Of a stretch of DNA of 38,785 nt, positions 26,727 to 38,785 are shown piece after piece; position 1 is the stretch's first letter, and each line of letters starts with the position of its first letter. The notes below the pieces were generated by a model, which saw only the letters and a list, made by a program, of their open reading frames with translations, was not told where the DNA came from and did no database searches. Both the position numbers and the translations under genes were made by a program. Source of the DNA: Candidatus Methylomirabilota bacterium (lineage in GTDB: Bacteria; Methylomirabilota; Methylomirabilia; Rokubacteriales; CSP1-6); NCBI GenBank assembly GCA_036001065.1, contig DASYUQ010000149.1:1-38785 (forward strand). The letters are read 5' to 3'.

Positions 26727-26811
<85 letters not shown>

Positions 26812-26840
26812 GCCGCCCGTAAGCGGGCGACCTTCCTGCG

Positions 26841-27977
26841 CTACTTCGTTCTGACGCTCTCAGCGGCCCGTATTTCGCCCGTACCGCTCTCGGTCATGCG
26901 CATGACGAGGGCGCTGCCGTCGCGGCGGGTACGGTTGGGGATCCAACGGGCATAGACGGTGAAGAGCATCTCGGGCGTGGTGTGGCCGAGCATGGCCGCC
27001 ACCCAGGACGGCGCCTCGCCGGCGGCCAGGGCGTTCGACGCGAATGTGTGCCGCGTCTGGTACATCACCCGGCGCCGGAGCTTGGCCTTCGCCAGCGTCG
27101 GATACCACACCCTGTCCCGGAGGTAGTTCGGGTTCACCAGGCCACCCTCCGGCCCGGTGAACACGTAATCCTGGCCCGGCTCCGGCATCCCCAGGCCGGC
27201 CTTGAGCCGCGCGGCCGCCTGCTGGGCCTTCTGCGCCCTCAGCGCCTCGACCACCGCCGGCGCCATGTCCACGTCGCGGACGCTGCTCGCCGTCTTGGGC
27301 GCGCCCTCCACGCCCCGGTAGCGGCCGGCCCGGATGCGGAATCGACTGCTCGGCCCATCGACGTCGCCGAGCTTGAGGGCTGCGAGCTCGTTCGGGCGTG
27401 CACCCGTCCAGAAGGCGACGGTGAAGTACGGCCGCCACCACGTCGGGCAGGACTTCAGGAAGCCGTCGATCTCGTCTGGGGCCAGCGGGTCCACCTCGAC
27501 CTGGGGCTCAGCGAGGGGCTTCACGACCACCAGCGGATTCTCCCGAATGAGCCGTCGCCGCGCGGCCGTGGCCATGATCATCTTCAACACCAGGAGCACT
27601 AGGTTGATCCGCCGGGCTCCGAGGCCCGCATCCTGGAGTTGGGTGACGAGCTGGCGGACCCGGGACTCCGTGATGTTGCAAAGCCGGAGATCCCCGAAGG
27701 CGGGGCGCAGCTGCGACTTGAGGACCTGTTCGTACTGGGCCTGGGTTGACGGCTTCCATCCCGACCGGCTCTCTTCCTTCCACGTGGCCGCGAAGGCCGT
27801 GAACGTCGGCGCCCGGCGCTCGTCAGGGACCGGCTCCCCGCGATCGCGGGCGGCCAGGATCCCGCGCTCGAGTTTCTTCGCCTCGTCGCGGTCGATGCCC
27901 TTGTAGGTCCGCTGGCGCTCCTGCCCGTCGGCGTCGTACCAGCGGATCGTGTAGCCCTTGGTCGTCTTCGTGATCAT
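26841..27977 (-). CDS. Tyrosine-recombinase integrase
   Basis: This 378-residue integrase, next to attL, most likely moves the element. A short N-terminal arm-binding sheet ([29 protein letters not shown]) is followed by a SAM-like core-binding domain (residues ~57-150). The catalytic domain has Arg194 (TGARPNELA), Lys228, Arg309, His332 (LGHTTPEM) and nucleophile Tyr342 (VYARW). The first His of the HxxR box is Tyr (YQTR), a known variant. The start is ATG at 27977 with AAGGAG upstream. Its start overlaps the upstream CGNR gene as ATGA. A decayed relative lies beyond attR. Confidence 0.93.
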
Positions 27978-28507
27978 CGCCGGGCTCCTTTCTTCGCCTT
28001 GCGCGGCCGTGCCCACTGCGCGTGCCGCTCCGCGCGCTTGTTGGCCCGCTTGACGCACGGCGTGGAGCAGTAGACCTGCCGGCGCACGCGGTAGAAGAGC
28101 CGGTGACAGGCTGGCTCGGGGCATCGGCGCACCGCGCTGGGGTCCGCGGCGAGGAGCCACGCCAAGCTGAGCAGCACCGCATCGCGTGGGTGGCCGGCGC
28201 TCCGGACCCAGGCCGGCGGCCCGGCTATGACATTGAGGAGCAGCGGCCCCTTGATCTCCACCATCCGCCACTTCAGAGGCCGGGCCGGGGCGACCTGGCC
28301 GAGCAGCGCCCGAACATCTTCCTGCAGGTCGCGGAGGGCCGATTCGGGCAGCTCCTTCGGCGAGGGGAACGGGATCGGCGCCCCCTTGGCCTCGAGGAAG
28401 GCGGTCAGATCATCCCGGAGGTTCAACCAGTCGCCGGGGCGGAATCGGTCTAGATCCCTCTCGGCGAACCGGATAGCCCACTCAAGGCGTTCGCGTAGTG
28501 TCTTCAT
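27974..28507 (-). CDS. CGNR-type zinc-finger protein
   Basis: The 177-residue protein starts at ATG 28507 behind GGGGAGGA. The N-terminal 120 residues are helical and unrecognised. The C-terminal CPEPACHRLFYRVRRQVYCSTPCVKRANKRAERH is a CGNR-type zinc finger (C-x4-C...C-x3-C), in which R-x-x-Y-C replaces the classical CGNR box. Related fingers are thought to bind DNA, often as regulators. It is the first gene of the leftward integrase operon and is coupled to the integrase by ATGA, so control of integration is a reasonable inference. Confidence 0.8.
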   Translation of the reverse strand: MKTLRERLEWAIRFAERDLDRFRPGDWLNLRDDLTAFLEAKGAPIPFPSPKELPESALRDLQEDVRALLGQVAPARPLKWRMVEIKGPLLLNVIAGPPAWVRSAGHPRDAVLLSLAWLLAADPSAVRRCPEPACHRLFYRVRRQVYCSTPCVKRANKRAERHAQWARPRKAKKGARR

Positions 28508-28526
28508 GCCAGTCCTCCCCTGTGGT

Positions 28527-28643
28527 GTCGCATCTATCGCGTTCCTATCTCTATGCGGAGTCTCGATGGGCCGGATTATATGCGACGGATTTTGTGTGCA
28601 CAACAGAATTTTATTGACTCTACTTATGCGACCTCGGTAAAGA
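28527..28643. promoter_or_regulatory. Divergent control region with repeated TATGCGAC sites
   Basis: Leftward promoter: TTGTGC (28603-28598), 17-base spacer, perfect TATAAT (28580-28575), reading to the CGNR-integrase operon. Rightward promoter: TTGACT (28614-28619), 18-base spacer, TAAAGA (28638-28643), reading to the HTH gene. The octamer TATGCGAC occurs at 28579-28586 (against the leftward -10) and 28625-28632 (inside the rightward spacer). One-mismatch forms are TATGCGGA (28552-28559; last two bases differ) and, inverted, GTCGCATC (28527-28534). They are likely operators, perhaps for the excisionase-like or CGNR protein. Confidence 0.65.
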
Positions 28644-28663
28644 TGATGCGCAGGAGGATTGCT

Positions 28664-28861
28664 ATGGACGCGAAGCTGCTGGACGTGGGGCAGGCAGCGG
28701 CGCTGCTGGGGCTGCACTCCGCAACGCTCTACCGCATGGCGCGCGCCCGCCGAATCCCGTGCGTGCGACTGGGCCGGCGCATCATCCGCTTCGACCCGCG
28801 CGCGCTCGAGCGGTACTTGAAGCAAAAAACCGTGGAGGTGCGCGAGGCGGCGGGGCGGTGA
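28664..28861 (+). CDS. Excisionase/AlpA-like helix-turn-helix protein
   Basis: This 65-residue protein starts at ATG 28664, with AGGAGGA six bases upstream. It is a single winged HTH of the excisionase (MerR-like) family: LLDVGQAAALLGLHSATLYRMARARRIPCVRLGRRIIRFDPRALERYL. Such proteins act as excisionases or as activators of satellite and prophage genes. Its position at the head of the rightward operon, facing the integrase operon, fits that role. Its stop overlaps the next gene as GTGA. Confidence 0.88.
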   Translation: MDAKLLDVGQAAALLGLHSATLYRMARARRIPCVRLGRRIIRFDPRALERYLKQKTVEVREAAGR

Positions 28862-29172
28862 GCGACCGCCTGCGGCCAGCGGCGCGCGACACGTCCTGGT
28901 GCGCCCCGCACAAGCGCCGGGAGCCCGGGCTGCTCCTCAATCTGCTGCGCGAGGCGTACCCTGACCCAGAGCCATTCCTCACGGCCGAGGATTTCGCTCG
29001 GCACCACCACGATGACATCCGCGCCCTCACCGATGACGCTCTCGAGAATGAACGGCTGCTCTCGTATCTCCGTCGAGCGTGCGAGCGGATCCCTGGAGCG
29101 TGGCTCATGGAGCGCATCTCACGCCTCGACGCCGAAGCCACGCGGCGCAAGCGCAGCGTGGCGAAGCGATGA
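28858..29172 (+). CDS. Uncharacterised small protein between HTH and RepA-like genes
   Basis: I do not recognise this 104-residue protein. It starts at GTG 28858 inside the HTH stop and ends inside the RepA-like start (ATGA), so it is translationally coupled on both sides. It is mostly helical and charged, with HHHDDIRALTDDALENERLLSYLRRACERIPGAWLMERI in the middle and a basic end (RRKRSVAKR). Its place before a replication ATPase suggests a replication accessory, by position only. Confidence 0.7.
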   Translation: MSDRLRPAARDTSWCAPHKRREPGLLLNLLREAYPDPEPFLTAEDFARHHHDDIRALTDDALENERLLSYLRRACERIPGAWLMERISRLDAEATRRKRSVAKR

Positions 29173-30377
29173 TCGTCGACGACTTCATGTCTGCGCTCAC
29201 TCCGGTCGTGGTTCGCCTCGACACCGTCGCGCCTGAGCTGGTCGAATGGGTCTGGCCAGGGCGTATCCCGCGTGGGAAGTTGACCTTGCTGATCGGCGAC
29301 CCGGGAGTCGGCAAATCGTTTCTCGCACTCGACATCGCCGCCCGTGTGTCGCGCGGCGCCGCGTGGCCCGACGGCGGCCGCGCGCCGGCCAGCGCGATCG
29401 TGCTCCTGTCTGCGGAGGATGGCCTGGCCGATACCATCCGCCCGCGTCTGGACACACTCAACGCGGAGGTCAGCCGTATCCATGCGCTCACGGCGATGCG
29501 GGAGGCGGGCGTGGATCGCAGCTTCAGCCTCGAGACTGATCTGGACCGCTTGGAAACGGTCATCCAGAACACAGGCGCCATCCTAGTCGGCGTGGACCCG
29601 CTGAGCGCCTACCTCGGCGACCGGGACAGCTACAAGGACTCTGAGATCCGGGGCCTCCTGGGGCCGCTCGCCGCGCTGGCCGAGCGGACCAAAACGGCCA
29701 TCGTGGCCATTATTCACCTCACCAAGGACCAGCAGCGGAAGGCGCTCTACCGGGCGCTTGGCTCCATCGCGTTCGTGGCCGCCGCCCGCGTCGTGCTCGC
29801 CCTTGGCAAGGACCCCGAGGACGAGGACCGGCGAATCTTGGTCACGGTCAAGAACAACCTCACCACGCCGGCCCCGGCGCTCGCCTTCACGCTCACGCGG
29901 GGCGTGCTCGACTGGTACGCGGACCCCGTCGATGGCATGGACGCTGACGCCCTCCTGTCGCCAGCGACCGAGGAGCCGGGCGAGCGGCAGGACGCGAAGG
30001 CGTTCTTGGAGGAGCTCCTGGCCGACGGTGACGTGCGGGCGACCGAGGCCCTGAAGGCCGCCAGGGCTCACGGCGTCTCCGAGCGGACCTTACGACGGGC
30101 CAGGCGCGACCTCGGCGTGACGGCCAGCCGGGTCGGAGGAGCCGGGAAAGCCGGGGCGTGGTTCTGGACGCTCACGCCTAAGGTGGCCACCACCACGGAC
30201 GCTAAGATGGCCACACCCGGAGAAGTGGCCGCCTTAAGGCAATCAGGCGACGCAACAGACGGAATCCCGCCCACTTCGCCTAAGAGGGCCATGTCTCAGG
30301 GTATGGCCCCCTTAGTGGCCGCATCAGGCTACGAGATCCCCCATCGCTCCAGCCTTCCGCCCAAGAGTTGGCCGTGA
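29169..30377 (+). CDS. RepA-like AAA family ATPase (replicative helicase type)
   Basis: This 402-residue protein has a RecA-like ATPase core (AAA_25/RepA type). The Walker A motif GDPGVGKSF is near residue 43, then LLSAEDGLADTIRPRL, the Walker B-like GVDPLSAYLG, AIVAIIHLTKDQQRKALYRALGS, and VKNNLTTPAPALAFTL. Residues ~285-340 form a winged-helix-like end (AFLEELLADGDVRATEALKAARAHGVSERTLRRARRDLGV). The final 60 residues are low in complexity and encoded by iteron-like DNA repeats. Family members act as replication helicases of plasmids and phage-related elements. ATG 29169 overlaps the preceding stop. Confidence 0.88.
   Translation: MIVDDFMSALTPVVVRLDTVAPELVEWVWPGRIPRGKLTLLIGDPGVGKSFLALDIAARVSRGAAWPDGGRAPASAIVLLSAEDGLADTIRPRLDTLNAEVSRIHALTAMREAGVDRSFSLETDLDRLETVIQNTGAILVGVDPLSAYLGDRDSYKDSEIRGLLGPLAALAERTKTAIVAIIHLTKDQQRKALYRALGSIAFVAAARVVLALGKDPEDEDRRILVTVKNNLTTPAPALAFTLTRGVLDWYADPVDGMDADALLSPATEEPGERQDAKAFLEELLADGDVRATEALKAARAHGVSERTLRRARRDLGVTASRVGGAGKAGAWFWTLTPKVATTTDAKMATPGEVAALRQSGDATDGIPPTSPKRAMSQGMAPLVAASGYEIPHRSSLPPKSWP
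30177..30322 (+). repeat. Iteron-like repeats in the 3' end of the RepA-like gene
   Basis: Imperfect copies of CCTAAGRTGGCCAC lie at 30178-30190 (CTAAGGTGGCCAC), 30201-30214 (GCTAAGATGGCCAC), 30222-30231 (GAAGTGGCCG), 30279-30292 (CCTAAGAGGGCCAT) and 30311-30322 (CTTAGTGGCCGC). A palindrome CCTTAAGG lies at 30232-30239. The spacing is irregular. Downstream, GCCGGCGTTT occurs twice (30418-30427, 30524-30533). This could be a replication origin recognised by the element's own Rep protein, or simply a repetitive protein tail. Confidence 0.5.
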
Positions 30378-30535
30378 CCTGCTGCGTCACACATCAGCGC
30401 CAGGTCGCGGCCCTGTGGCCGGCGTTTCAGAAAAAAGGCCGGATAGAGATTGGCTGGCCGGCCGCCGAAGTGCCAACCAGCAACGTCAATGAATTCAACC
30501 CCGGGGGATCCTCAAAGGATTTTGCCGGCGTTTGA
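30374..30535 (+). CDS. Possible 53-residue protein coupled to the RepA-like gene
   Basis: A GTG at 30374 overlaps the RepA-like stop as GTGA and opens a 53-codon frame ending at TGA 30533. The product begins MTCCVTHQRQVAALWPAFQKKGRIEIGW and ends GGSSKDFAGV. No family is recognised. Support comes from the overlap, which matches the previous three junctions of this operon, and from a protein-like composition. Confidence 0.45.
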   Translation: MTCCVTHQRQVAALWPAFQKKGRIEIGWPAAEVPTSNVNEFNPGGSSKDFAGV

Positions 30536-30577
30536 CGACCCGGTGCCCCAACCTGCGATTTAGCGAAATGGCTCTGA

Positions 30578-31111
30578 ATGGCACGTAGTCGGACGAGCGG
30601 ACGGCAGTCAGCGGCTGAGCAGGCGACCTGGCGGCGCCGGCGCGGCTACCCGGGTGGTGCCCGCAGCGTGGCCCAGAAGCGAGGTGACACGCCCTTGCCA
30701 CCCCTGCCGACACCGGAGGTGACCGCGATGCTCCGGGCCTTCCTCGTCGGCGACGAGGCGGCGTTTCGTCAGCAGCTTGGGCTCGAGCCTTGGCAGGACA
30801 CGCCGCTTGCCGACCGGACGGGCCACTGCACGCAGGGCCACCCGATCGCCGGACCGGGCCCCGTAGGCCACGGCTGCCGGGATCAACACGAGGCGCACGC
30901 GCTGCGCTCCGCGCTCATCGCCGAGATCGAACGACTCGGTGCCTTCCGCTTCGCCGCCCTCGATGACCTCGACGACGAGGTGGCCCGGGTGGCATGGGGC
31001 AGGCTGGCCCGCGCGGCTGAGGAGGTCGGTGTTCCCGAGGAGAAGTGGACCGAGGTGCTCCGCGCGGCGGGCTGGGAGGGCTGGTGGGAGGAGGAGGACC
31101 CGAATGACTGA
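30578..31111 (+). CDS. Uncharacterised protein of the integrative element
   Basis: The 177-residue open frame has no recognised family. The N-terminal 50 residues are basic (GRQSAAEQATWRRRRGYPGG). The rest contains GHCTQGHPIAGPGPVGHGC, a Cys/His-rich stretch that could bind a metal, and an acidic tryptophan-rich end (EVLRAAGWEGWWEEEDPND). ATG 30578 has no ribosome-binding site. ATG 30728 has GGAGGT seven bases upstream and would give 127 residues (MLRAFLVGDEAAF...), perhaps the true start. It overlaps the next gene. Confidence 0.6.
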   Translation: MARSRTSGRQSAAEQATWRRRRGYPGGARSVAQKRGDTPLPPLPTPEVTAMLRAFLVGDEAAFRQQLGLEPWQDTPLADRTGHCTQGHPIAGPGPVGHGCRDQHEAHALRSALIAEIERLGAFRFAALDDLDDEVARVAWGRLARAAEEVGVPEEKWTEVLRAAGWEGWWEEEDPND

Positions 31112-31277
31112 CGAGGTTCCGGGGAGTCCAACACCAGACGAGGAGGAGGCGATCGACGCCGCCCTCAACCGGCTGACCGACCAGTTCCTGCGGGCGGAGG
31201 ACGAGGCGCGCGCCCAGCTGCTCGAGATGCGCGAAAACCTCGAAATCGAGCGGCTGGAAGCATGGTATCGTACCTGA
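31104..31277 (+). CDS. Small acidic coiled-coil protein
   Basis: This 57-residue protein starts at ATG 31104, behind GGAGGAGGA and overlapping the preceding stop. It is acidic and helical (EEEAIDAALNRLTDQFLRAEDEARAQLLEMRENLEIERLEAWY) and probably forms a coiled coil. No family is recognised. Its place before the capsid gene might suggest a head-assembly role, by position only. Confidence 0.6.
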   Translation: MTDEVPGSPTPDEEEAIDAALNRLTDQFLRAEDEARAQLLEMRENLEIERLEAWYRT

Positions 31278-31482
31278 CAGCGAGATCGGTCCCCCTGGCT
31301 GGTCCCGCCTGGCTCCGCCTCCGACGCGACAGTCGAGGCCGAATCACCAGGTGGCGTCACAGGACGCGTGACCGAGATCCTCGCACCCGAGCCGCGCCCT
31401 GGCGGAACATGGCCAGCGGGTCCGGCAGGAGCCCTCGGCTCCGGCGGGAAAACCCAAAACGTGGAGTCTGTCTTGATGCCCG

Positions 31483-31506
31483 CCCATCATGACGGCGGGT
31501 GATGGG
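31483..31506 (+). promoter_or_regulatory. Hairpin over the capsid gene ribosome-binding site
   Basis: CCCATCA (31483-31489) pairs with TGATGGG (31500-31506), which is part of the purine-rich TGATGGGGG before the GTG start at 31516. Folding would hide the ribosome-binding site. The 238-base stretch 31278-31515 that contains it has no gene I can support. Confidence 0.35.
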
Positions 31507-31515
31507 GGTTTGCCC

Positions 31516-32697
31516 GTGAGCGAGCGATACGCCGACGTGTTCAAAGAAGTCAAAGAGAGCATCGAGCGACAGACCGAAGGTTTTCAGATCCTCAAAAAGT
31601 CCTACGAAGATCGCCACGCCAAGCTCGAGGACCGGCTGGAGGAGTTGGAGTCTCGTGCGTCCTCGCCGGGCAAGACTGCGGGCGCGTCCCGATTCGAGCA
31701 CGAGCACAAGCAAATCTTCACCACTTGGCTGCGCAAGCCGACCGACCCGTCGCGCAAGAACGCCTTGGCCGACTTCGAGGCCCGGGCGCTTGAGCACAAG
31801 GACATCACGATCGGCACGGGCGCGGCCGGCGGCTTCGCAGTCCCCGAGGAGATCGGCCGCCAGGTCGAGCTGCTCGAAAAGAAATTCTCGCCGGTGCGCC
31901 GGCTCGTCGCCGTGCGCCAGACGGGGAGCAGCGACTACAAGGAGCTCGTCCAGATTCACGGCACGACCGCCGGGTGGGTGGGGGAGACGGGCACGCGCAC
32001 GGCGACCCTGACCTCGACCCTCCGCGAGGTGACGCCCACGCACGGCGAGCTCTACGCCTATCCGCAGGCATCGGAATGGTCCCTCGACGACATCTTCTTC
32101 AACGTCCCGCAGTGGCTGAGCGAGGCGGTGGCGCGGGAGTTCGCCATTCAGGAGGGCGAAGCGGTCATTCGGGGAAACGGCACCAACAAGCCGACCGGGA
32201 TGCTGAACACCGCGCCGGTCAGCACCGCGGACGATGCCTCGCCGCTCCGGGCGGCGGAGGCGTATCAGTTCGTGGCGTCCGCCGCCTCGCCCGATGCCAT
32301 CCTGCCGGACAGCCTCATCACGCTCGTCTACACGGTGAACAGCGCGTATCGGGCGAACGGCACCTGGGCCATGAATAGCGCCACCCTCGCCGCCATCCGC
32401 AAGCTGAAGGACACGCAGAATCAGTACCTGTTTCAGCCGGGCCTGATCGCTGGCCAACCCGACCGGCTGCTCGGCTATCCGATCGAGGTATGGGAGCAGA
32501 TGGACGACATCGGGGCCAACAAGCATCCCGTGGCCTTCGGTGACTTCTCGCGCGGGTACCTGCTCGTGGACCGCGTGGGGCTACGGATTCTCGAGGACCG
32601 CGTGACCAATCCTGGTTTTGTCCGGTTCTACGTTCGGAGACGTGAGGGCGGCAAGCCGCTCGTGAACGACGCTATCAAGTGGATTAAGACGACCTAG
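31516..32697 (+). CDS. HK97-type phage major capsid protein
   Basis: This 393-residue protein is typical of the HK97 capsid family. Residues ~1-55 are a coiled-coil delta-domain-like region (KEVKESIERQTEGFQILKKSYEDRHAKLEDRLEELE). A shell domain follows, with GTGAAGGFAVPEEIGRQVELLEKKFSPVRRLVAV, EWSLDDIFFNVPQWLSEAVAREFAIQEGEAVIRGNGTNKPTGML, and DRLLGYPIEVWEQMDDIGANKHPVAFGDFSRGYLLVDRVGLRIL. Such capsids normally need a protease to remove the delta domain; none is seen in the element. GTG 31516 is preferred over ATG 31489 because of the purine run upstream. Confidence 0.93.
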   Translation: MSERYADVFKEVKESIERQTEGFQILKKSYEDRHAKLEDRLEELESRASSPGKTAGASRFEHEHKQIFTTWLRKPTDPSRKNALADFEARALEHKDITIGTGAAGGFAVPEEIGRQVELLEKKFSPVRRLVAVRQTGSSDYKELVQIHGTTAGWVGETGTRTATLTSTLREVTPTHGELYAYPQASEWSLDDIFFNVPQWLSEAVAREFAIQEGEAVIRGNGTNKPTGMLNTAPVSTADDASPLRAAEAYQFVASAASPDAILPDSLITLVYTVNSAYRANGTWAMNSATLAAIRKLKDTQNQYLFQPGLIAGQPDRLLGYPIEVWEQMDDIGANKHPVAFGDFSRGYLLVDRVGLRILEDRVTNPGFVRFYVRRREGGKPLVNDAIKWIKTT

Positions 32698-32832
32698 CGC
32701 GGGGGAAGCATGGCGGTGTTGGGGCAGCGCCGTGAAACCTGACCCGGGGCCCTCGCGGCCGGGGAGCTCGCCCGGTGCTCCCCCCTGGTCAGGATGCCCC
32801 GCGTCCCATCCTCATGCTACCTTCGGTGCCGC

Positions 32833-33180
32833 ATGCAGTGCCCGAGGTGTGCCGGGTGGCTGATGCGCGAGCCGGCGACGCTGAATTGCTGGAGCTGCGG
32901 GCGCCTGCTGGTCGTCCGCGACGCGACCGCCGAGCAGCGCCGCCGTCAAGGCGAGATCGACCGGCGCCTCCGGCCGGTGAGCGTCGAGTGTCGTCAGCCC
33001 TACAACTCGTCCAATTGGATGCCGCGGGCCGGGCGGTTCCGACTGCCGGCGGTGCCGACCTCACGGCCTACGCGACGCTCGACGTCAAGTGCCGCCTCGA
33101 GGCCCTCGGCCGAGAGCTCATCGAGTTCAACGGCGTCCACGCCACCGCCGCCCTCTTCGTCAGCGTCGCCTACCACCTGA
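32833..33180 (+). CDS. Possible zinc-ribbon protein overlapping the next gene
   Basis: From ATG 32833 the frame reads MQCPRCAGWLMREPATLNCWSCGRLLVV, a clear C-x2-C...C-x2-C zinc ribbon, then a basic helical stretch to about residue 50. Beyond 32988 the frame overlaps the next gene by 193 bases and becomes serine/proline-rich (SSSSSTASTPPPPSSS), which looks like non-coding shadow. Either the real protein is a ribbon with an unstructured overlap, or a frameshift joins it to the next frame. The 135 bases before it (32698-32832) hold no gene. Confidence 0.5.
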   Translation: MQCPRCAGWLMREPATLNCWSCGRLLVVRDATAEQRRRQGEIDRRLRPVSVECRQPYNSSNWMPRAGRFRLPAVPTSRPTRRSTSSAASRPSAESSSSSTASTPPPPSSSASPTT

Positions 33181-33248
33181 TCGCCGAGACCGAAGATTCC
33201 GTCGCCGCCCGGGCCTTCGTGATCGCGCGCGCCGTGAAGGGAGACTGA
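32988..33248 (+). CDS. Uncharacterised small protein before the tape-measure gene
   Basis: Read from GTG 32988, the 86-residue product has a convincing composition: ALQLVQLDAAGRAVPTAGGADLTAYATLDVKCRLEALGRELIEFNGVHATAALFVSVAYHLIAETEDSVAARAFVIARAV. It ends one base before the tape-measure gene. In tailed phages this slot usually holds a tail-assembly chaperone, often made by a frameshift. That role is only a positional guess. Confidence 0.62.
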   Translation: MSSALQLVQLDAAGRAVPTAGGADLTAYATLDVKCRLEALGRELIEFNGVHATAALFVSVAYHLIAETEDSVAARAFVIARAVKGD

Positions 33249-33249
33249 G

Positions 33250-35232
33250 ATGGCGGCCCCGATCGGGGCTCTCCGCGCCGAGCTGTCCGCGACGGCTGCG
33301 AAATTCGAGGCCGACCTGGGCCGCGCCCGCAAGGCGCTCGGGTTCACCAAAGGCCAGTTCGAATCGCTCAAGTCCGCGGCCACGGCGGCTAGTGCGGGGA
33401 TCGCGGCGGCCGTCACCGCACTCGCCGCCATCACCAAGAGCACCGCCAATGCCGGGGACCAGCTGGCCAAGATGAGCCAGAAGGTCGGCGTGTCCGTCGA
33501 GGATCTCTCCGCGCTCAAGCACGCTGCGAATCTGAGCGACGTGTCGCTCGAGCAGCTCCAGGTCGGACTCGGGCGCCTCGCTCGAAACATGAGTGACGCC
33601 TCGATGGGCTCGGGGGAGGCCGCGCAGCACTTCAAGGCCCTCGGGATTACGGTCGCGAATGCCGACGGCAGTCTCCGGCCGATTCGAGACGTCCTCCTGG
33701 AGGTCTCCGACCGCTTCGCCGGGATGACCGACGAGACGAGGAAAGCCGCGCTGGCCCAGGAGCTCTTCGGGAAGAGCGGGCTGGAGCTCGTGCCGCTCCT
33801 CAACCAGGGCTCGGCGGCCATCAAGGCGCAGATGGAGGAAGCCAAGCGCCTGGGGATCGTCTGGAGTACCGACGCGGCCCAGGCCGCCGAAGCCTTCAAC
33901 GATAACCTCACGCGCCTCGGCTCGGCCCTGGAGGGCGTCAAGCTCGCCATCGGGACGGCGCTGATCCCCGTCCTTCGGGACCTGACGGACCGGCTCGTGC
34001 AGTTCGTGCAGACCGACCAGTTCCGGGGCTGGGCCCGGGAGGTCGGCGAGATCCTTCGGGTGAGCACGGGCCCGGGCCTGATGTTCCTCGCGCGCGCGGC
34101 CGTCGTCGTGGTCAACACTTTCCGCGTTCTGATGACCGCGCTGACCTCGGTCGTCCAGGCGATCCTGGCCGTGAATATCGCCGTCCGCGAGGGCGGGTTG
34201 TTTCTCCGCAGGTTCCTGGGGAGCGCGACCGAGGAGGCGGCGAGTAAGCTCGCGGAGCTCAAGGCGGCATTCGAGGTCAACAGCATCGGCATGAAGCTGT
34301 TAATCGGGGACGTTGCCGCGTCGGATGCGGCCCTCACCGCCCTGGAGCATTCACTCGCGACCCTCGGGCAGACGACGATCCCGCCAGCGACCGCTGGAGT
34401 GAAGACCTTCACCGCTGCGGTTCAAGGCGCCAAAGGGGCGACCGCCGATTGGCTCGTCACGCTCAACGGGGTCAGCCAGCCCCTCGCCCAGCTCGCCGCC
34501 GAGCAGGCCCCCTTCGCGGATGCATTTGGGCATAGCTTCGGGAAGATCGAAACCGATGCCGGCGAGATGATGATCACACTGGGGAACGTCACTCAGTCGG
34601 TGCGCGACATGGCCGCCCAGCAGGCGCCCTTCGCCGACGCCTTCGAGCAGAGCTTCGGGCGGATCAAGACCGGCGCGTCGACGATGTGGCAGTCGCTCTT
34701 GGCCACCTTCCAGACAGCGAGCGATGGCCTGCGCACGATGGCCCAGACGACGGCGACGATGCTCACCACCGCCTTCACCAACATGACCACCCTCAGCCAG
34801 GACCAGATGACCCAACTCTCGACCGCGATCGGCACGCTCCTCGGCGGCATCTTCGGACAAACCAAAGCGTTCGCCATCATCATGGCGATTATTTCGACGG
34901 CTCAGGGCGTGGCCCGGGCGCTGGCGGATTGGCCCTGGCCCTTCTCGCTCGTCGTCGCGGGCATCGTGGCCGCGGCCGGCGCCGTCCAGATCTCCACGAT
35001 CTCGAACGCCGAGATGGCCATGGGCGGCATCGTCACCGGGCCCACCATGGCCCTCATCGGTGAGGCGGGCCCGGAGGCCGTCATTCCGCTGGATCGGCTG
35101 GGGCGGTTCCAGGAGCGGGAGACCGTGATCCACGTCCACACCCACCTCGACGGGCGCGAGATCAGCAAGAGCGTGCTGGTGCTCCACGGCCCCAATCTCA
35201 TTCGTCAGCGCACCGGGCTGCGGTCACTCTAG
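33250..35232 (+). CDS. Phage tail tape-measure protein
   Basis: This 660-residue protein starts at ATG 33250. The N-terminal part has the usual pattern LRAELSATAAKFEADLGRARKAL and KMSQKVGVSVEDLSALKHAANLSDVSLEQLQVGLGRLARN, with DETRKAALAQELFGKSGLELVPLLNQG, typical of tape-measure proteins. Membrane-like segments occur near residues 280-310 and 545-580. The end (AMGGIVTGPTMALIGEAGPEAVIPLDRL) is diagnostic. An internal repeat, AxxAPFADAFxxSFGxIxTxA, occurs twice around residues 415-475. It is short for a siphovirus tape measure, implying a tail of at most about 100 nm if functional. Confidence 0.9.
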   Translation: MAAPIGALRAELSATAAKFEADLGRARKALGFTKGQFESLKSAATAASAGIAAAVTALAAITKSTANAGDQLAKMSQKVGVSVEDLSALKHAANLSDVSLEQLQVGLGRLARNMSDASMGSGEAAQHFKALGITVANADGSLRPIRDVLLEVSDRFAGMTDETRKAALAQELFGKSGLELVPLLNQGSAAIKAQMEEAKRLGIVWSTDAAQAAEAFNDNLTRLGSALEGVKLAIGTALIPVLRDLTDRLVQFVQTDQFRGWAREVGEILRVSTGPGLMFLARAAVVVVNTFRVLMTALTSVVQAILAVNIAVREGGLFLRRFLGSATEEAASKLAELKAAFEVNSIGMKLLIGDVAASDAALTALEHSLATLGQTTIPPATAGVKTFTAAVQGAKGATADWLVTLNGVSQPLAQLAAEQAPFADAFGHSFGKIETDAGEMMITLGNVTQSVRDMAAQQAPFADAFEQSFGRIKTGASTMWQSLLATFQTASDGLRTMAQTTATMLTTAFTNMTTLSQDQMTQLSTAIGTLLGGIFGQTKAFAIIMAIISTAQGVARALADWPWPFSLVVAGIVAAAGAVQISTISNAEMAMGGIVTGPTMALIGEAGPEAVIPLDRLGRFQERETVIHVHTHLDGREISKSVLVLHGPNLIRQRTGLRSL

Positions 35233-35293
35233 ACCACACGAAGGTGGATCGGTGGATGGAGTTCCTTGACATGGAATGTTTCTAGGAGAGACA

Positions 35294-35497
35294 ATGACGC
35301 CTCGGAGGCTAGCAACCGTAATGCGCGATTTGCGGGACCGGGCGAAGTTGACGCAGGAGGAGCTGGCGAAGCGGGCTAAAGTCTCCCGCAGCTATCTCGC
35401 GGCCCTCGAGGCTGGCCATCGGAAGAACCCGTCGATCGACACCCTCAAGCGCCTGGCGCGCGCCCTCGGCGTGCCGGTGACGGAGCTGCTGGAGTGA
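35294..35497 (+). CDS. XRE-family helix-turn-helix regulator
   Basis: The 67-residue protein is one Cro/CI-type HTH: MRDLRDRAKLTQEELAKRAKVSRSYLAALEAGHRKNPSIDTLKRLARALGVPVTELLE. ATG 35294 has AGGAGAG four bases upstream and is preferred over ATG 35276. It probably represses a promoter of the element. Its position after the structural genes, not beside the integrase, is unusual for a main repressor. Confidence 0.88.
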   Translation: MTPRRLATVMRDLRDRAKLTQEELAKRAKVSRSYLAALEAGHRKNPSIDTLKRLARALGVPVTELLE

Positions 35498-35501
35498 GGC
35501 C

Positions 35502-35810
35502 ATGGACAGAGAAGCAGCAGAGACGCTCAGCAAAAAACTAGTAGCGGTCGTGGATCAGGTGATCGCTGAGGAACTCGCCGAGGCGCAGCACCCGCTCGAG
35601 GAGCGCGGCCCGGTCGGGTCAGGCCCGGATAGGGTCGGGCGAATCGTGGCGGCTTGCGAACCCCTTGACCAGCGAAGCCGTTTTGTTCTCAGCGTCGTCG
35701 TCACGCGCTTCATCTATGCCTGCGTGGTGACTCACCTAGATACCGAGTTCGAGGGCACCAAGCGCTATTTGGAGCGTCAGATTCAGGAAGTGGAACCGCC
35801 GCCCAATTGA
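35502..35810 (+). CDS. Uncharacterised protein downstream of the XRE regulator
   Basis: This 102-residue protein starts at ATG 35502, four bases after the XRE stop. It is helical, with an acidic start (EAAETLSKKLVAVVDQVIAEELAEAQHPLEERG) and a hydrophobic centre (RSRFVLSVVVTRFIYACVVTHLDTEFEGTKRYLERQI). No family is recognised. Tight linkage suggests a role paired with the regulator. Confidence 0.65.
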   Translation: MDREAAETLSKKLVAVVDQVIAEELAEAQHPLEERGPVGSGPDRVGRIVAACEPLDQRSRFVLSVVVTRFIYACVVTHLDTEFEGTKRYLERQIQEVEPPPN

Positions 35811-35883
35811 GGATAGAAACGCCCCGCGCGGCTGGCACCGCCGGGGCCTGGCCCATCACCCCCAACCCTGAGAGGAGGACGCG

Positions 35884-36117
35884 ATGAGCGAGCACAGGAT
35901 ACCGCACATCCCCGCCGAGCTGATCCCCTTGATTGAGACGCTGGTGGAGCGCCCGAGGGGCTTCCGGCCCCATCGCCGGACCCCGCGCGAGCTGGAGCGG
36001 ATGCGCGGCCACCTGCCCGAAGTGGCCCGCGACTTCGGCCTCGGCTCGCCGGTCTACAACCGCGTCCTGCTCGTCACGGCGCTGGAGTACGCCCGCGCCG
36101 AAGCGATCCCGTCATGA
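35884..36117 (+). CDS. Uncharacterised small protein coupled to the second recombinase
   Basis: This 77-residue protein starts at ATG 35884 behind GAGAGGAGG. It is rich in Pro, Arg and Glu (RPRGFRPHRRTPRELERMRGHLPEVARDFGLGSPVYNRVLLVTALEYARAE) and ends overlapping the recombinase start as ATGA. No family is recognised. It may be a partner of the recombinase, by position. Confidence 0.65.
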   Translation: MSEHRIPHIPAELIPLIETLVERPRGFRPHRRTPRELERMRGHLPEVARDFGLGSPVYNRVLLVTALEYARAEAIPS

Positions 36118-37250
36118 CCGCCCTGGTGCCTGCGAGCGGCGGCCCGCCCGTCCGGCCCGGGGCCACCCTCGCCGAGCTGATCCGGCCCTTCCTCGGGTGG
36201 TTCGCCACGATCCGGGGGCGCAGCCGGCACACGATCGCGGCCTATGAGAAGGATCTGGATACCTTCGCCGTCTTCGCGAAGGGCATCGGGGTGCGGATCC
36301 CGTCGCAGGTGACGTTCAACGTCGTCGAAATGTACCTCGCCCATCGGCTCCATCACGACGGGCGAAAAGCCACCACGCTGAATCGGGCCCGGTACGCCAT
36401 CGGTCAATTCTTCCGGTTCCTGCGCCGGCAGGGGCTCGTCACGACGGACCCGGTGGCCGACACGTTCTCGCTCAAAGAGCCTCAGCGCCTCCCCCGCTAC
36501 CTCTCGATCGCGGACCAGGAGCGCGTCCTGGCGCACTTCGCGGCCAGCGAGTCGTTGGAGGGGCGGCGCGACTACGCCCTCGTGGCGACGGCATTGTTCG
36601 CCGGGTTGCGCGTGAGCGAGCTGGCCACCGTCCGCGTGACTGACCTGGACCTCGAGGCCGGCACGCTGCGCGTCATCGGCAAGGGCGACAAGCAGCACGA
36701 GTGCGTCATCGTGCCCAGACTGCGCGAGATCCTCAGCGGCTACCTGGCGGACGTGCATCCCGTTCTGGCCGCTGCGGCCGTCGAGGGGCGCGTGGACCGC
36801 ATCCACGGCGAGTGGACCAGGCGTCGGCGACAACTCCACCTGTACGTGAACGGCGAGCACCGCATTGAGCCACTGGCGACCCGCGACCGCGACGAGGCCG
36901 AGCGCATCCTCGCCGACCGCCTCCGGGAGCTGCGGGTCGCGCACGCCTCGCCCTATCTCTTTCCCCGCGCGGGGGGCGGCTACTCCCGCCTCCGGCGGGC
37001 GCTCCCGCTGCTGACGCGCAGCATCTTCATGATGATCCACCGCAAGGTGTCGGCCGTCGCGGGCCGCCATGTCCACCCCCACATGCTCCGGCATTCCTTC
37101 GCCTCACGACTCCGGGAGAACGGCGCCCCGCTGGAGCTGATCCAGGAGGCGCTCGGCCACGCCAACATCAGCACGACGTTGATCTACGCGCACCTGACCA
37201 CGACGAAGCGCAAGGCGGAGATCGCAAAGTACCTGGAAGGAGGGGCGTGA
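36114..37250 (+). CDS. XerC/D-like tyrosine recombinase with internal insertion
   Basis: This 378-residue second recombinase has a SAM-like N-terminal domain (FLGWFATIRGRSRHTIAAYEKDLDTF, about residues 20-110). The full catalytic set is Arg166 (FAGLRVSELATV), Lys193 (GKGDKQH), His323-x-x-Arg326 (HMLRHSFASRL), His349 (LGHANISTT) and Tyr358 (IYAHL). Between Lys193 and the His box sits about 65 extra residues (213-279). They include RRRQLHLYVNGEHRIEPLATRDRDEAERILADRL, which looks like the arm-type DNA-binding sheet found at the N-terminus of other integrases. It may resolve multimers or invert DNA. Confidence 0.9.
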   Translation: MTALVPASGGPPVRPGATLAELIRPFLGWFATIRGRSRHTIAAYEKDLDTFAVFAKGIGVRIPSQVTFNVVEMYLAHRLHHDGRKATTLNRARYAIGQFFRFLRRQGLVTTDPVADTFSLKEPQRLPRYLSIADQERVLAHFAASESLEGRRDYALVATALFAGLRVSELATVRVTDLDLEAGTLRVIGKGDKQHECVIVPRLREILSGYLADVHPVLAAAAVEGRVDRIHGEWTRRRRQLHLYVNGEHRIEPLATRDRDEAERILADRLRELRVAHASPYLFPRAGGGYSRLRRALPLLTRSIFMMIHRKVSAVAGRHVHPHMLRHSFASRLRENGAPLELIQEALGHANISTTLIYAHLTTTKRKAEIAKYLEGGA

Positions 37251-37251
37251 C

Positions 37252-37500
37252 ATGAGATCCCTGATGCTGCTCCTCGCGGTAGTGGTGCTCGCCGGGTGCG
37301 CCGAGCCGATCCGGTGGACGAAGGACGGCGCGCTTGTCGAGGCCGACGTCCAGCGTGAGGACTTCGAGTGCATGCAAGCCGCCAGGGAGGCGACGCCGAG
37401 GGCGGTGTATCCCGCGACGCATCCCGGCGGGCTCACCTTACCAGGCCGGCACATCTACATCCGATGCATGGAGACCAAGGGCTACCGGCGGGCGGACTAG
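37252..37500 (+). CDS. Small lipoprotein, last gene of the element
   Basis: The 82-residue protein starts at ATG 37252 with AAGGAGGGG upstream, one base after the recombinase stop. It has a lipoprotein signal MRSLMLLLAVVVLAGC with the lipobox cysteine at residue 16. A conserved-looking pair of cysteines (DFECMQAA and YIRCMETKGY) may form a disulphide outside the membrane. C-M-x-x-K-G-Y endings are common in small outer-membrane lipoproteins. It may alter the host surface, such as superinfection exclusion; this is speculative. Confidence 0.75.
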   Translation: MRSLMLLLAVVVLAGCAEPIRWTKDGALVEADVQREDFECMQAAREATPRAVYPATHPGGLTLPGRHIYIRCMETKGYRRAD

Positions 37501-37615
37501 TGCCCCGTATTTTCCCCGTACACCATCGCGGAAACAGGTACAAATGCGCTCACTCGTGCTCACTCGCCACGGTGGGGTAACATGGCGCGATGACGAGGAA
37601 AACCGCGAAAACGGA

Positions 37616-37650
37616 GGGGGACTCGCCGAGGAGCGCCCGGCGAGTCCCCC
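37616..37650. repeat. 13-bp inverted repeat at attR
   Basis: GGGGGACTCGCCG (37616-37628) pairs perfectly with CGGCGAGTCCCCC (37638-37650) across a 9-base loop. The right arm is the first part of the attachment repeat, so the element carries an inverted copy of the attachment core next to it. It may be a recombinase-binding arrangement or a terminator. Bases 37501-37615 show no gene. Confidence 0.75.
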
Positions 37651-37661
37651 CTTCGGCACCA
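37641..37661 (+). other. attR, 21-bp attachment repeat
   Basis: This sequence is identical to 26791-26811, the 3' end of tRNA-Leu. It marks the right boundary of the integrative element. Confidence 0.93.
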
Positions 37662-37729: not shown

Positions 37730-37923
37730 GGATTACCACAACGGCCTTCTGATCCTGCGGGCTCCCTGATCCGGGCATCCGGCTGGCGAAGGCACTCCCG
37801 TCCCTCCGGGTTCGGTTCGGAATGTACTGCACGTACACGGTGAGTGAGGATCATCTCGAGTGTCGTGTGTCGAAGCTGCCGGTGGAAGAGCTGCCGGAGT
37901 CCGAGCTCGTGGCCACCCAGCTC
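37730..37923 (-). pseudogene. Remnant of a second, related integrase
   Basis: Read leftward, fragments match the end of the integrase at 26841-27977. SWVA is at ~37923-37911, HTTLEMILT at ~37868-37841, and, after a frameshift, [26 protein letters not shown] from ~37847 onward (the intact protein has [26 protein letters not shown]). Extra bases and a frameshift between the blocks show it is broken. Its orientation and position relative to the attachment repeat mirror the intact integrase, pointing to an older element at the same tRNA. Confidence 0.8.
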
Positions 37924-38026: not shown

Positions 38027-38380
38027 CTAGCCCTCGCCCCCGTCTTCCCTGTGCAGGTCATACTCCGGGCTCCGGGCGCCGAGGCCCTCGAGCGACTCGC
38101 CATCGATCGCGATGAACACGATGGCTTGCGGCCACGTCGGGCGATTCACCCAGATGGCCGAGGCCACGGATCCCGTACCCGTGTTGATTCCCTGCCACAC
38201 GCCGCCGGCCGGCCGGCGATCACGCCGGCTCGTCGTCATCTCGCGCTTGCATTCTTCGAAGCCATCATTGGAAAGCGCCTTCACGACTTCTTCCGGCGCC
38301 GCGACCCATCCGTGCTCCTGTTCGATCCAGGTCATCATGCCCTGCTCGCGAAGCTCGTTGAGGCCATTCATTGGCGGCAT
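38027..38380 (-). CDS. Uncharacterised 117-residue protein
   Basis: This leftward gene starts at ATG 38380 with GGGAG about six bases upstream. The product includes MPPMNGLNELREQGMMTWIEQEHGWVAAPEEVVKALSNDGFEECKREMTTSR and GINTGTGSVASAIWVNRPTWPQAIVFIAIDGESLEG. No family is recognised. The mix of helix and later hydrophobic strand, with two tryptophan motifs, looks like a real protein. It lies downstream of the partial gene at the window edge, probably in one unit, and could belong to the older element or the host. Confidence 0.6.
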   Translation of the reverse strand: MPPMNGLNELREQGMMTWIEQEHGWVAAPEEVVKALSNDGFEECKREMTTSRRDRRPAGGVWQGINTGTGSVASAIWVNRPTWPQAIVFIAIDGESLEGLGARSPEYDLHREDGGEG

Positions 38381-38421
38381 CTTGTTCTCCCGATCAGCCG
38401 TCGAGGCGGCGAGCCCTGTAG

Positions 38422-38452
38422 GGGAGGTGACTCCAGGGAGGAGCCACCTCCC
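38422..38452 (-). terminator. Stem-loop between the two leftward genes
   Basis: GGGAGGTG (38422-38429) pairs with CACCTCCC (38445-38452), and CTCC/GGAG continue the stem after one mismatch. The stem-loop lies just after the stop of the leftward gene at 38458. There is no T-run, so it may be a weak terminator or an attenuator ahead of the next gene. Confidence 0.4.
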
Positions 38453-38457
38453 GCGGC

Positions 38458-38785
38458 TTACTTGCCCGCGCTGATCGACACGGTGAAGTTGACCGTCTCC
38501 TCCCGATACGGTGACGGGATATACGCGAGCTCAAGGCGGATTTCCTTCAGCTTCTTCGCCTTCAGGGCGTCGGCAGGGAACTCCACGTCCAGGGACTGGG
38601 TCGCATCCTGCCCGGGGTCGAGGCGCTCGTTACCGTACGTGGGGAACCTGAGGGTCGGTTCGGTCCGCGCCGCCTCCAGCTTGATGGGCTGCCCCTGGGC
38701 ATCGATGTACTGGATCTTCCCTGCGACCAGACGGACGGTCTGATTGGCCGACGTGTTCTTCAGCTTGAGCGTCCCGGTGAGCTTC
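38458..38785 (-). CDS. Uncharacterised protein, partial (5' end outside window)
   Basis: The last 109 codons of a leftward gene run from the window edge to TAA at 38458. The sequence reads KLTGTLKLKNTSANQTVRLVAGKIQYIDAQGQPIKLE and ends YREETVNFTVSISAGK. Alternating hydrophobic residues and LKLKNTS suggest an immunoglobulin-like beta sandwich, as in many small secreted or lipoprotein domains. This is a fold impression, not a family match. The start and any signal peptide lie outside the window. Confidence 0.7.
   Translation of the reverse strand, partial: KLTGTLKLKNTSANQTVRLVAGKIQYIDAQGQPIKLEAARTEPTLRFPTYGNERLDPGQDATQSLDVEFPADALKAKKLKEIRLELAYIPSPYREETVNFTVSISAGK

Follow-up and report, generated by a model that had tools for sequence, protein, structure and literature searches.

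The window analysed here is a stretch of 38,785 nucleotides from a Candidatus Methylomirabilota bacterium, and its two phage-particle genes, a major capsid gene and a tail length tape measure protein (TMP) gene, sit in a bounded integrative island of about 10.85 kb (~26812–37661) and not in a whole prophage. The integration target is tRNA-Leu(gag) (26727–26811, forward strand, found with ARAGORN), and the same tRNA is present in relatives. The 21 bp attL core (26791–26811, forward strand) is the 3′ end of this tRNA, and it is perfectly repeated in direct orientation as the 21 bp attR core (37641–37661, forward strand), for which 0.01 chance matches are expected. In 11 related genomes, with 11–18 kb examined in each, tRNA-Leu(gag) is located beside the same ABC permease with a single copy of the att sequence. 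In one genome of the same genus (G087, 96% nucleotide identity), the collinearity with the left flank stops exactly at 26811.

The locus is less well secured on the right than on the left, since the right flank (38027–38785) matches G087 on another contig (G087:C30), away from the tRNA-Leu neighbourhood, and the contig breaks off (38458–38785) within a gene that has four genomic matches, one at 99% identity; this repeated gene is likely the cause of the contig break. Both features, together with the fragmentation of the assembly into 239 contigs, would agree with a contig that joined pieces of different elements. Such an artefact is nevertheless very improbable, because the junction between capsid and TMP lies well inside the perfect att pair, each of the two genes (the capsid being the only PF05065 protein) occurs in a single copy in the whole genome, and the composition is uniform. 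Just beyond attR, at 37761–37844 on the reverse strand, there is a relic of an integrase C-terminus that shares 64% identity with the island integrase over 28 aa. It is the scar of an older element, so this integration site had been used earlier.

The backbone of the island starts next to attL with a tyrosine integrase of 378 aa (26841–27977, reverse strand; PF00589/PF14659, phrog_1 4e-62), behind which come a CGNR zinc-finger-like gene, an AlpA-like HTH gene and a RepA-type AAA_25 gene. Among them, the CGNR-like gene (27974–28507, reverse strand) overlaps the integrase start by 4 nt and matches PF11706 at E 2.7e-4, which is under the curated cut-off, and its relatives lie beside int/RepA in the islands of G033 (E 6e-22) and G059 (E 2e-5). 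The AlpA/excisionase-like HTH protein (28553–28861, forward strand, likely start 28664) is assigned by PF12728 (6e-14) and the excisionase family phrog_66. The RepA-type ATPase (29079–30377, forward strand; PF13481 2.7e-33) is a short form without the primase domain and has relatives in islands. Two further ORFs on the forward strand precede the capsid gene: one of 177 aa (30578–31111), with no match in Pfam or PHROGs, and one of 57 aa (31104–31277), which overlaps the stop of the former and has no match of note in sequence.

Downstream of the TMP gene, all features are on the forward strand, that is, an XRE-family regulator (35276–35497; PF01381 2.6e-19) that is 54% identical to the XRE protein of the G059 island, two ORFs of 102 aa (35502–35810) and 77 aa (35884–36117) without matches, a second tyrosine recombinase of the XerC-like type (36114–37250; PF00589 2.1e-29), and a small putative lipoprotein (37252–37500) with a weak PF08139 match. 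The XerC-like recombinase near attR carries an insert at roughly residues 215–290, and the occurrence of two recombinases within one small island is unusual. Close to the att cores there are also two nearly identical motifs, cccgtatttcgcccgtac (26867–26884) and cccgtattttccccgtac (37504–37521), which are possibly arm-type sites of the integrase.

The HK97-fold major capsid protein (31516–32697, forward strand, alternative start 31489) is full length according to PF05065 (E 2.9e-71) and phrog_10 (E 3e-70), and its ORF is open with a composition of the coding type (GC1/2/3 0.63/0.46/0.86). Its nearest counterparts are 61–64% identical. In the maximum-likelihood tree it groups with the capsids of the functional-phage relatives L002 and L026 (100/100), and measured from the shared node its terminal branch is 0.32, compared with 0.35 and 0.26 for these two. 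A capsid that had long been free of selection should run ahead of its relatives; since this branch is not accelerated, long neglect of the gene is disfavoured, which does not apply to a recent loss. The N-terminal coiled coil, a scaffold-like delta domain, is about 39 residues shorter than in L002 and L026, and in the alignment with L002 this gap forms one block.

The TMP of 660 aa (33250–35232, forward strand; PF10145 E 1.7e-8, phrog_8462 E 1.5e-57) is likewise full length, with a typical C-terminus and an open ORF of coding-type composition (GC1/2/3 0.66/0.49/0.89). The sequence-only reading had called this protein short, but the length is normal, as the family ranges from 625 to 736 aa (625 aa in L026, 704 aa in Shpa and 736 aa in G007) and the phrog_8462 profile has 672 positions. 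The idea that a short TMP would shorten the tail of a helper therefore finds no support in its length, 660 aa being typical of the family.

The same reading had placed the capsid gene next to the TMP gene, and this holds: both are intact and 552 nt apart, with only small overlapping ORFs between them. The first of these (32833–33180, forward strand) has a zinc-ribbon-like N-terminus judged from its sequence and sub-threshold Pfam matches only; the second, of 86 aa (32988–33248, forward strand), stops directly before the TMP start and has no match in Pfam or PHROGs. By position alone, it occupies the usual place of the tail assembly chaperone (TAC), and no chaperone signature is found in it. 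In a comparison with known TACs, it gave just a non-significant match to TAC2 of L066 (E 0.017). The fold comparison proposed earlier for the small frames was carried only as far as single-sequence AF2 models of 30578–31108 and 32988–33245, which had a mean pLDDT of ~49 and gave nothing usable, so that they were left out of the fold search.

In relatives, the interval between capsid and TMP is long, as had been claimed, and extends over 3.2–8.8 kb with up to ten genes (8.8 kb in L002, 5.8 kb in L026, 4.4 kb with 10 genes in phage VW-6S and 3.2 kb in Paracoccus phage Shpa). The portal-to-tail genes described as missing from this interval are indeed absent, but the location was only partly right: the usual place of portal and protease is upstream of the capsid, and neither occurs anywhere in this island. 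None of the island's genes could be recognised as a portal, protease, terminase, connector, tail tube, tip or lysis gene, and the portal family PF04860 is absent from the whole genome. A search with tblastx for vestiges of protease or connector genes beside the capsid gave noise only in this high-GC sequence. That is to say, the locus is a bounded integrated element with an incomplete set of virion genes, as is the case for phage satellites in general, and it lacks the portal, terminase, connectors, tail tube and lysis genes of a complete prophage.

These absences fit a decaying remnant, in which deletions have removed the portal, protease, terminase and connector and the tail genes from a prophage or from a more complete satellite of the capsid-forming type, and capsid and TMP have stayed intact by chance. 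As in the full phages L026 and L002, the capsid lies ahead of the TMP and both share one strand, and the older integrase fragment by attR shows that decay does occur among elements at this site. The edges of the two full-length ORFs, however, are clean, no vestige of a neighbouring phage gene was detected, the capsid branch is not accelerated, and the att sites and integrase are intact. The clean internal deletion considered by the sequence-only reading may have been the historical route, since gene order and strand match those of full phages such as L026; a close relative with matching deletion scars was not found, and with the nearest capsids merely 61–64% identical, scars from a specific phage could not be matched.

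Relatives of RepA were found in six genomes of the phylum and in IMG/VR, and they mark a series of elements with partial gene sets; scans of IMG/VR with TMP or RepA as single proteins gave no relatives. In G033 there is a minimal island of int-CGNR and RepA. The G050 island (L035, G050:C162:1300-11700) contains RepA, TerS, a GpA-type TerL and a lambda-type portal, and no capsid was recognised in it. The G059 island (L036/L041, G059:C12, ~94.2–112.0 kb) is 17.7 kb long, lies in tRNA-Arg(cct), and contains CGNR, RepA, an AlpA-like HTH protein, TerS, a weakly matched TMP of about 1000 aa and XRE. This TMP is weakly assigned (phrog_794 E 6e-4), and the assignment leans on similarity to the protein at the TMP position of a G084 phage, which is itself weakly matched. 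For the G059 island, the crossover seems to lie close to the anticodon, with restoration of the tRNA's 5′ half (39-nt repeat).

Among viral contigs, three of 7–9 kb in IMG/VR (L052, L055 and L056) have RepA followed by capsid and portal, with TerL in two of the three. Another record (L066/L102) combines a RepA relative with an integrase, a tail completion protein, two chaperone-type tail proteins, TMP and TerS; no capsid match was obtained, and neither portal nor TerL was seen in its 16.9 kb. Its sister L104 shares this cassette at 87–98% protein identity, and between L066 and L104 the dN/dS is 0.27 for TMP, 0.18 for TAC and 0.16 for TerS, with a range of 0.10 to 0.31 over all cassette genes except one of unassigned function. 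Headless TMP cassettes are thus retained under selection in elements related to the island, although the L066 and L104 records may be fragments. Such purifying selection also speaks against the decaying remnant. None of the RepA-linked elements carries the exact pair of capsid plus TMP, and in 94 genomes of the phylum, IMG/VR and a scan of GTDB contigs no such pair was found in an island of this kind. This uniqueness favours the remnant, and it is the missing packaging and maturation genes, together with the want of a sister copy with the same pair, that make the remnant the strongest rival; as an account of the locus it is possible, if somewhat doubtful.

Among known satellites, cf-PICIs make their own capsids (PMC10803314, PMC11389934). 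The island resembles them in its integrase, AlpA-type regulator, replication gene, own HK97-type capsid and small size (10–15 kb in cf-PICIs), but differs in having no portal, prohead protease, connector or terminase. Moreover, cf-PICIs are defined as having no tail genes and stealing their tails entirely, whereas the island has a TMP; putative tmp genes have been reported in some cf-PICIs (PMC12987554 Ext. Data Fig. 10). Lacking portal, protease and terminase, the island is not a cf-PICI by definition.

The PLE satellites of Vibrio cholerae encode TMP and TAC and use their own TMP in chimeric tails, and deletion of tmp in a PLE causes 96–99.9% of transduction to be lost (PMC12987554). For the head, PLEs use the capsid protein of the helper, remodelled by a satellite protein (PMC10945586). 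The likeness to the island is one of gene content, namely a satellite-borne TMP with a helper needed for the rest of the tail; in contrast to PLEs, the island brings a capsid gene of its own, and neither a TAC nor a baseplate hub is recognisable in it; it is not a PLE. With PICMIs and other minimal satellites it shares the integrase, AlpA (PF12728), a replication protein and the small size, but PICMIs have neither capsid-remodelling genes nor identifiable packaging genes (PMC10803314). The full siphophage L026, a prophage of a Hyphomicrobiales MAG, has a capsid 64% identical and a TMP 38% identical in the same order and strand; unlike the island, it has a portal and a protease, and its capsid and TMP genes are separated by connector and tail genes over 5.8 kb.

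Taken together, the reading we tentatively prefer, at a little less than an even chance, is a phage-satellite-like island that contributes its own shell protein and TMP to particles built by a helper. This satellite-like reading is supported by the att pair, the single-copy sites in 11 relatives, the backbone of Int, AlpA-like protein, RepA and XRE, the capsid branch, the lack of a PF04860 portal in the genome, the relatives with partial sets, the possible helper in the same assembly and the precedent of PLEs. Several findings count against it: the pair was not met with in any related island of the genomes and contigs scanned, the island has no recognisable packaging gene (TerS) by which its DNA would be recognised, and no prohead protease to process the delta domain, the ORF before the TMP has no chaperone signature, and the L066 and L104 records may be incomplete. 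Of the two routes named in the sequence-only reading, selective retention is the one favoured, on account of the satellite-type island with intact att sites, the related partial-set islands, among them the TMP cassette under purifying selection, and the capsid rate that is not accelerated.

In this proposed mechanism, the integrase of the island would insert it into tRNA-Leu(GAG), the AlpA/XRE-type proteins would regulate it, and the RepA-type ATPase would replicate it. During activity of a helper tailed phage, the two dimension-setting proteins would come from the island, namely the tape measure and the shell subunit, whose scaffold domain is shortened, and the portal, protease, terminase, connectors, tail tube, tip and lysis functions of the helper would complete a chimeric particle containing island DNA. 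What is observed is the island with its boundaries, gene content, intact genes and relatives; that it is expressed, depends on a helper, and is packaged into particles of chimeric assembly is predicted. Going further, a class of satellites that encodes exactly the shell subunit and the TMP, so that head size and tail length are set by the satellite and the rest, including the packaging motor, by the helper, is unlikely on present evidence. In the same assembly, the 16.3 kb contig C135 (L075, G000:C135:1-16329) carries the head module of another tailed phage, with TerS, TerL, portal phrog_113, protease phrog_53 and a different capsid, phrog_1005; this phage could possibly be a helper for the island.

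The two proteins might also act in defence, as dominant-negative subunits that spoil the assembly of an infecting phage and do not serve the transfer of the island itself. To our knowledge, the known tail-targeting systems are dedicated inhibitors and not full structural proteins, which counts against such interference, and PADLOC found no match to a defence family beyond generic HTH proteins. That just two assembly-critical proteins have been kept would agree with it, and interference with tail assembly by islands is an established form of defence, as reported in PMC11364771 and, for Rta, in PMC12987554. On balance, this explanation is improbable.

TMPs encoded by satellites were first demonstrated in 2026, in PLEs, and there are hints of them in cf-PICIs (PMC12987554). 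The present island and the RepA-linked headless TMP cassettes suggest that the manipulation of tail assembly also reaches satellite-like islands in a bacterial phylum that has been little studied, and that a satellite can combine such manipulation with a capsid of its own. The island also shows that satellites may keep single structural genes and not whole head modules, and islands with single structural genes would probably be missed by satellite finders based on gene sets.
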